From an uncultured Flavobacteriales bacterium (GTDB lineage Bacteria; Bacteroidota; Bacteroidia; Palsa-965), in assembly GCA_903873905.1 (NCBI GenBank), contig CAIQQJ010000115.1, positions 42,356 to 106,355 on the forward strand: 64,000 nt of DNA, in the 5' to 3' direction. Under the pieces are notes generated by a model. It was not told where the DNA came from. It ran no database searches and was given only the letters and a program-made list of their open reading frames with translations. Position 1 is the first letter of the stretch; every line of letters starts with the position of its first letter. Shown here one piece after another: positions 6,744 through 52,511 of this stretch. A program made the position numbers and the translations under genes.

Positions 6744-6850
6744 TTTGCGTGAGGGATGGAGGCATTATTGAAGCTCTTTTTTTCGATTTCTTCGAAAAAA
6801 AAGCGACTGCCGAGAGCCCGACCTGACGTAGGAAGGGCACGCCCTACTAA
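6744..6850. repeat. Interspersed structured element, TTTTGCGTGAGGGAT...GGGCACGCC family
   Basis: Shares TTTTGCGTGAGGGAT, AGCCC and GGGCACGCC with 52364-52459 (reverse complement); internal hairpin CTTTTTTTCGATTTCTTCGAAAAAAAAG. Confidence 0.7.
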
Positions 6851-10615: not shown

Positions 10616-10694
10616 CTTCGATACATTTTTTGTCAAACAAAAAATCTTATTTCAAAAGAACATTGTTGTGACAAAAAACACTCAGTCTGACAAT
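10616..10694 (+). repeat. Interspersed variable-hairpin element, arms CTTCGATACAT / ACTCAGTCTGACAA
   Basis: CTTCGATACATTTTTTGTCA...TGACAAAAAACACTCAGTCTGACAA; related copies at 30309-30486 and 52206-52252. Confidence 0.8.
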
Positions 10695-13250: not shown

Positions 13251-13510
13251 TTTCAAATTGCAGATGTGCAGATTGCAAATTATTAAAAAAAAATCAGGAG
13301 CACACCAATATGGTTTTCCAGCAACTCTTCTCCCGCCTTCTGCTACAAGTCCTCGTCCCAACAGAAATGTTGGGACTGTGGGCTTTTCGCGGCAGTCGGG
13401 GCTATTTTCGAACACTTCAGTTTCAAACAAAAAAACACGGAGGCACGGAGGAGTTTCAATTTGATATCATCACATTTCTAATCTGAAATCTGCACATCTG
13501 AAATCTGAAA
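13251..13510. repeat. Composite intergenic repeat region: inverted heptamer arrays enclosing a variable-hairpin element
   Basis: GCAGATGTGCAGATTGCAAATT at the left and ATCTGAAATCTGCACATCTGAAATCTGAAATC at the right; element 13327-13406 has hairpin GTCCCAACA-GAAA-TGTTGGGAC. Confidence 0.8.
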
Positions 13511-30308: not shown

Positions 30309-30486
30309 CTTCGATACATTTTTCTTTTTTGTCAGTTTTAGTTCTAACCGAAAAGTAATCTTGAATTTGACAAAAAAGAAAAACACTCAGTCTGACAATA
30401 ATAATATTTTGTCAGACTGAGTGTTTTTTTCAGATCTGAAAATTTTCTTTCATTTTGAAATCTTGTCCTGAAAAAATGTATCGAAG
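30309..30486. repeat. Head-to-head pair of CTTCGATAC...ACTCAGTCTGACA elements forming a bidirectional terminator-like structure
   Basis: Outer ends CTTCGATACATTTTT and AAAAAATGTATCGAAG; 16-bp perfect stem 30319-30334/30368-30383; 17-bp perfect central stem 30382-30398/30409-30425 followed by a T-tract. Confidence 0.9.
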
Positions 30487-34121: not shown

Positions 34122-35828
<1,707 letters not shown>

Positions 35829-36040
35829 TTTCAAAATTTAGAATTCAAAATTCAAAATTAATTTCTTTCCTTTTTTTTTCTGGCAATGGGATATTCCTAA
35901 ATAGCCCAGATTGAAGTGGAAAGCCCGCAAGCGCACGCATCGTCGGGTCTGAAGACGTGACGATGCGTGCGCTGAGGACTTGTAACGGAAAGCGGGAGAA
36001 GTGTTTCCTTGAAACTGAAATTTTTCTGCTCCCAAAAAAT
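35829..36040. repeat. Composite repeat region: TTCAAAA heptamers plus ATAGCCC...GCGGGAGAAG variable-hairpin element
   Basis: Element 35899-36002; 15-bp perfect stem AGCGCACGCATCGTC/GACGATGCGTGCGCT; arms match reverse complement of 13327-13406. Confidence 0.8.
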
Positions 36041-52205: not shown

Positions 52206-52511
52206 CCTCGATACGTCTTGCTGGAAAAACGCAAGCCTACTCAGTCAGACAAATTTACAATTTACTAAAACTCCTAACATTCTTTTTCTCATCCTTTCGA
52301 CAATAACTTCTTATTGATAAGCAACAACTATTTCATTGGTAATTGGTAATCTGTAATCATTATGGCGTGCCCCCATCCCCCAAACAGAATTGTTGGGGGG
52401 ATGGGCTTTCTCCCGAAGGGACCACTATGTGGCACTACTATCCCTCACGCAAAAGAAATTTCCAATTGAAAGAAAATTGGAAATTGGAAATTAATAAATT
52501 GAAAATAATTT
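52206..52511. repeat. Composite repeat region between convergent genes (four repeat types)
   Basis: 52206-52252 CTCGATACGT..ACTCAGTCAGACAA; 52335-52358 TTGGTAATTGGTAAT; 52364-52459 reverse TTTTGCGTGAGGGAT..GGGCACGCC element; 52463-52508 ATTGGAA heptamers. Confidence 0.8.

Follow-up and report, generated by a model that had tools for sequence, protein, structure and literature searches.

The window analysed here is a 64,000-nucleotide stretch of the genome of an uncultured Flavobacteriales bacterium, and the element under study lies between pyrG (CTP synthase, ending at position 35828) and a convergently oriented gene that encodes a secreted protein with a lectin domain. The whole copy with its flanking conserved stretches occupies 35878..36032 (+ strand) and closes at its 3′ end with a highly conserved TGCTCC. 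In an alignment of 20 copies, conservation runs from about 24 bases before a TAGCC motif through GCTCC and the identity edges are sharp; the left flanking stretch of the focal copy has diverged. A conserved left arm (TAGCCCAGATTGAAGTGGAAAGCCCGCA, 35902..35929, +) leads into the 5′ arm of a variable tip stem (AGCGCACGCATCGTC, 35930..35944, +), and the 3′ arm of that stem (GACGATGCGTGCGCT, 35959..35973, +) is followed by a conserved right arm (GAGGACTTGTAACGGAAAGCGGGAGAAG, 35974..36001, +), which pairs with the left arm via 3x3 GNA/GGA internal loops. The 15 perfect base pairs that the preliminary description had claimed for the tip are present (35930-35944 / 35959-35973), and the stem can be extended inward past one mismatch and one G-T pair. 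Its 5′ arm is absent from the other copies listed in the genome.

A second copy of the same kind (13297..13428, - strand, with arms at 13327-13406), whose neighbouring genes are also convergent, carries the tip stem GTCCCAACA/TGTTGGGAC. The likeness previously noted between the two copies is confirmed, with 25 of 28 positions matching in the right arm and 22 of 29 in the left, as is the contrast between their tips, AGCGCACGCATCGTC and GTCCCAACA sharing no relation. With up to three mismatches allowed, the right-arm pattern occurs at exactly two sites in the window, namely these two copies (0.06 expected), and the left-arm pattern at the same two sites (0.00 expected); the RNA folding z-scores are -6.6 and -3.9. 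Together, these site counts and z-scores show that the observation is not a matter of chance.

A scan of the whole window against Rfam at gathering thresholds returned no match, and a search by E-value was then used. The focal hairpin is a copy of Flavo-1 (RF01705), its core at 35899..36003 (+) being matched by cmscan over the full length of the covariance model (1-76/76, 40.3 bits, E 1.7e-7), slightly under a gathering score of 42 that is a database threshold rather than a biological feature. The shortfall is probably due to the long variable tip. The 13.3-kb copy (L001) also scores below the cut-off, at 37.5 bits, while other Flavo-1 copies of the genome exceed it (42.6-63.8 bits), and the full-length matches as a whole span 28-64 bits; membership of the focal copy follows from its clear homology to the above-threshold copies of the same genome. 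Other Rfam matches by E-value were at chance level and were discarded, and a literature search by sequence string gave nothing relevant among the papers listed. Flavo-1 was found computationally in 2010 by Weinberg and colleagues, who rated it "probably" an RNA and not cis-regulatory (PMC2864571), and Rfam files it under the type "Gene; sRNA". The family is thus a known one and not new, though without known function. The focal element adds a member to this unexplained family, and its interest lies in the modular tip and in a sister class that is missing from the database.

Two classes can be told apart in the 3.9-Mb genome. Type A, with the TAGCC left arm, includes the focal and the 13.3-kb copy and has about 25 copies (25 left-arm sites), and type B, to which most of the 89 right-arm matches belong, has about 85; reversed-pattern controls for the left- and right-arm searches gave 0 sites. 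Over 100 copies of this family (A and B) are therefore scattered through one genome. Type B has its core in common with type A, starts with GCGTGAGGGAT, ends with GGGCACGCC, and carries a second short variable hairpin, which makes a three-way junction; its outer stem is GCGTG/CACGC. It is a sister class of Flavo-1 without an Rfam entry. A covariance model built from type B (R1) matches the 13.3-kb type-A copy at 13335-13397 and finds two type-B copies in the window. One (6747..6843, +, 44.8 bits, E 2.4e-8) has the usual outer arms and a wholly different inner hairpin, an unrelated T-rich/A-rich stem standing in place of the whole inner hairpin with the outer arms intact. The other (52364..52450, -, 24.8 bits, E 0.0011) has lost the right core arm and keeps the outer arms and a CCCCCCAACA hairpin. 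This copy also bears an insert, CCACATAGTGGTCCCTTCGGGAG, made of two small hairpins, one with a TTCG loop, that recurs at one fixed position in the left core arm of about 10 copies (L012, L024, L033, L091 and other type-B copies). Across 59 relatives, the type-B model is found in 31 and RF01705 in 22, some of the relatives' Flavo-1 matches overlapping type-B copies, and copy number ranges from 0 to at least 71. The nearest named pyrG to that of the focal genome is from a Bacteroidia metagenome-assembled genome (85% protein identity).

The conserved core pairs through symmetrical 3x3 purine loops, produced by a 5′-GNA.GC.GGA-3′ unit repeated on both sides, and the pairs are supported by covariation. 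In the type-B alignment (R1), 97.5% of cells are paired and 8 of 19 pairs show double changes; the covariation score was reached by 0 of 500 shuffles, and slid controls fell far below it. Per-pair counts set CCG/CGG in type A against GGG/CCC in type B, TT/AA against TA/TA, and GC/GC against GT/AC. The loops are predicted to adopt sheared G-A geometry, and in the copies with GGTTA/TAATA an A-G loop pair is replaced by T-A, which turns the GGA loop into TTA/TAA pairs. Structural selection on the core, one of the two processes offered earlier for the hairpin, is thereby strongly supported. Mismatches in the tips, read on the + strand, comprise 51 G-T against 12 A-C when counted by cell (raw p 7e-7, inflated by shared ancestry; by position about 13:4, p ~0.05), an excess that gives a hint of + strand folding, whether in RNA or in single-stranded DNA.

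The tips behave differently from the core. A symmetric stem finder detects no simple long tip stem in about 30 of 105 copies, so that the description of the stems as always complementary was overstated for the genome and is better put as "mostly". Clustering at 85% identity gives 36 tip clusters, four of which contain both A and B copies, and the tip of the 13.3-kb copy, CACAGTCCCAACATTTCTGTTGGGACGA, is identical to that of the type-B copy L019. Since the same cassettes occur in both classes, arms and tips have separate histories, and tips have been swapped from one copy to another, also across the classes. Of the 24 members of the largest cassette, 4 carry the loop TTCA in inverted form, TGAA, on an unchanged asymmetric stem (e.g., GTGTTGGG or GTGTAGGG against CCCGACAC), and CCCAACA hairpins are present with loops in both orientations (GAAT/ATTC, GCAT/ATGC). 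Template switching at inverted repeats leaves such a trace, a loop turned round while its stem stays intact (PMC8794818), and it would be the process that renews the tips. Structural selection and templated renewal had been posed as alternatives; the data point to both, the first through core covariation and the second through shared A/B cassettes and loop inversions.

One such hairpin, CCCAACA-N4-TGTTGGG, occurs 99 times in the genome and its reversed pattern not once; the sites inspected are mostly tips or the second hairpin of type B, with a few elsewhere. The hairpin is also present in the tip of an unrelated repeat family of the same genome, CTTCGATAC...ACTCAGTCTGACA, and tips in this genome may therefore be renewed by a general process acting on DNA. 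This third family has conserved arms with unrelated, mostly complementary stems, and is represented in the window at 10616-10686 (+), 30309-30391 (+) and about 30416-30486 (-), the copies near 30.3-30.5 kb lying in opposite orientation like paired REPs. An origin of the tips as inserted REPs belonging to RAYTs of this genome was also considered. A likeness to such a REP (that of a RAYT on contig C106) was seen for the GTGTCGGG hairpin alone, and nearly all GTGTCGGG sites are inside the elements, for which reason this origin was not adopted.

The copies have definite ends: identity between pairs at unrelated sites reaches 95.8% within the element and is at the random level (0.58-0.59) in the flanks. 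Complementary termini (GCGTG/CACGC) are present in type B, whereas type A shows no obvious terminal inverted repeats; a target duplication was recognised for neither class. Many copies of both classes (e.g., L001, L016, L065) are directly preceded by a recurrent CTCCGTG(C/T)CTCCGTG-T-run, apparently another dispersed intergenic repeat. Gene contexts are convergent for 27 copies, tandem for 46 and divergent for 14, with 16 sense and 30 antisense among the tandem ones (p 0.054); orientation relative to genes is not fixed. In G032, replication-strand bias was not significant (26 lagging vs. 16 leading, p 0.16). The element is absent downstream of pyrG in those congeners for which the 3′ end of pyrG was available, and in the nearest named relative, so that the position of the window copy is lineage-specific; the congeners were too diverged to yield a precise pair of empty and filled sites. 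A composite transposon bounded by neighbouring copies was rejected on reading the translations: the open reading frames between them look like chromosomal genes of an ordinary sort, unrelated in kind, and no transposase was seen among them.

We consider it likely that the Flavo-1 copy represents a dispersed REP/MITE-like element of Bacteroidota that comes here in two sister classes (A and B) and acts as a folded single strand; its mobility as a DNA unit and its single-strand function are what we infer from these patterns. The unit would spread into intergenic gaps as a discrete piece of DNA, a spread that the dispersed sequences themselves record. Selection on the folding of one strand would keep the core as a long imperfect hairpin, in which 2-3-bp helices, whose pairing is established by covariation, alternate with 3x3 GNA/GGA purine loops. 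Beyond the core the tip would be free, and any self-complementary segment could serve. Tips, which are demonstrably swapped between copies and classes, would in addition be rewritten by template switching between the stem arms, such that most stay complementary. The strand that matters could be a transcript, or else single-stranded DNA that a transposase recognises, and we prefer DNA because orientation relative to genes is not fixed. More tentatively, Flavo-1 and its sister class might form one Bacteroidota superfamily of mobile single-strand DNA elements, with tips drawn from a swappable pool of hairpin cassettes; template switching, together with small palindromes inserting at the tips, might keep this pool renewed.

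Several observations would also suit a transcript, among them the covariation, the CCCTTCGGG insert in some copies and the excess of G-T over A-C on the + strand. They are what a true non-coding RNA, either a trans-acting sRNA or a UTR element amplified by duplication, would display if RNA selection had produced the covariation and had favoured G-U over A-C mismatches, and both the Rfam type and the "probably" of PMC2864571 lean that way. We nevertheless regard this reading as unlikely, given a single genome with more than 100 copies where many relatives have none, the lack of a fixed orientation to genes, and a window copy that is not kept at the orthologous site. Moreover, in the transcriptome of F. 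psychrophilum, Flavo-1 matches lie indistinctly sense or antisense to transcribed regions, without a consistent strand, and many fall outside any (PMC9723704). A discrete RNA gene is less well supported by the evidence than a dispersed, mobile-like element. Bidirectional intrinsic terminators, or protective hairpins at 3′ ends between genes, would account for copies that are intergenic, often between convergent genes, and stable by their folding z-scores. This explanation is very improbable. Instead of a GC hairpin followed by a T-run, type B has a T-run or T-rich stretch before and an A-rich stretch after it on the + strand, an arrangement opposite to that of a terminator whichever strand is read. 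In addition, the neighbouring genes diverge at 14 copies, and termination has no need of so complex a conserved core.

A more specific form of the dispersed-element reading would have an IS200/RAYT-like Y1 (HUH) transposase act in trans on the copies as REP-type substrates, in the way that RAYTs act on REPs; that the elements are single-strand hairpins speaks for it. In three genomes (G001, G025 and G055) a Y1 gene is found no more than about 200 bp from a type-B copy, and in G001 and G025 a single Y1 gene and a single B copy were found in each. With uniform positions, 0.19 such neighbour pairs are expected (P 0.001); the expectation rises to about 1 (P ~0.07) should Y1 genes and B copies prefer the same gaps between genes. 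The adjacency of IS200-type transposase genes and B copies is thus only suggestive. The Y1 proteins concerned are IS200-type and do not reach the NCBIfam cut-off for RAYTs, no two of the three genomes share the same geometry, and the palindromes that accompany the Y1 genes are unrelated ones of their own. A B copy accompanies 1 of the 32 Y1 loci listed, and in G020 31 B copies occur without any Y1 gene. In the focal genome, none of the three Y1 transposase genes adjoins a B copy, and no mobilising enzyme was identified. We judge this form doubtful, and rather more so than the RNA reading.

In the focal genome, one Y1 gene (C106:81549-81824) has GTGTCGGGT...ACCCGACAC hairpins on its flanks, similar to the commonest type-B tip cassette, and another (C23:7234-7575) has its own CCATAACCCCAAGC...GCTTGGGGTTAT hairpins downstream. 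Contig C121 of G055 has a vsr-like fragment, a gene with weak similarity to phosphorothioate-DNA restriction endonucleases and an IS200-type transposase gene, all enclosed between two type-B copies of opposite orientation.

A family filed as sRNA in Rfam for more than 10 years thus looks more like a dispersed, mobile-like element, and annotation pipelines may in consequence call many false sRNAs in Bacteroidota. The origin and upkeep of perfect hairpins are usually credited to slow compensatory mutation, and a single genome with 100-plus copies bearing interchangeable tips offers a natural experiment on both.

Compared with known systems, the focal element resembles the Flavo-1 RNA (RF01705; PMC2864571) in core sequence and structure over the full model, but the conserved region of its copies reaches a TGCTCC 3′ end that Rfam does not model, and sister class B scores ~28-39 bits with the Flavo-1 model, under the Rfam cut-off. 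With REP/REPIN sequences and their RAYTs (PMC2817692, PMC3733652) the elements share high copy number, intergenic location, a palindromic form, a folded single strand and lineage-specific amplification; they differ in being longer (~80-160 bp), in their complex purine-loop core, in having no cognate RAYT found for them, and in lacking a fixed terminal GTAG or CGTC tag, no tetranucleotide of that kind being fixed at the ends of the copies listed. MITEs are likewise short, non-autonomous, dispersed units with sharp ends, whereas type A is without clear terminal inverted repeats or a recognised target duplication. Template-switch renewal (PMC8794818) shares with the tips both loop inversion on unchanged stems and perfect stems of changing sequence; it was shown there for rRNA hairpins, and here the cassettes are also exchanged between element classes.
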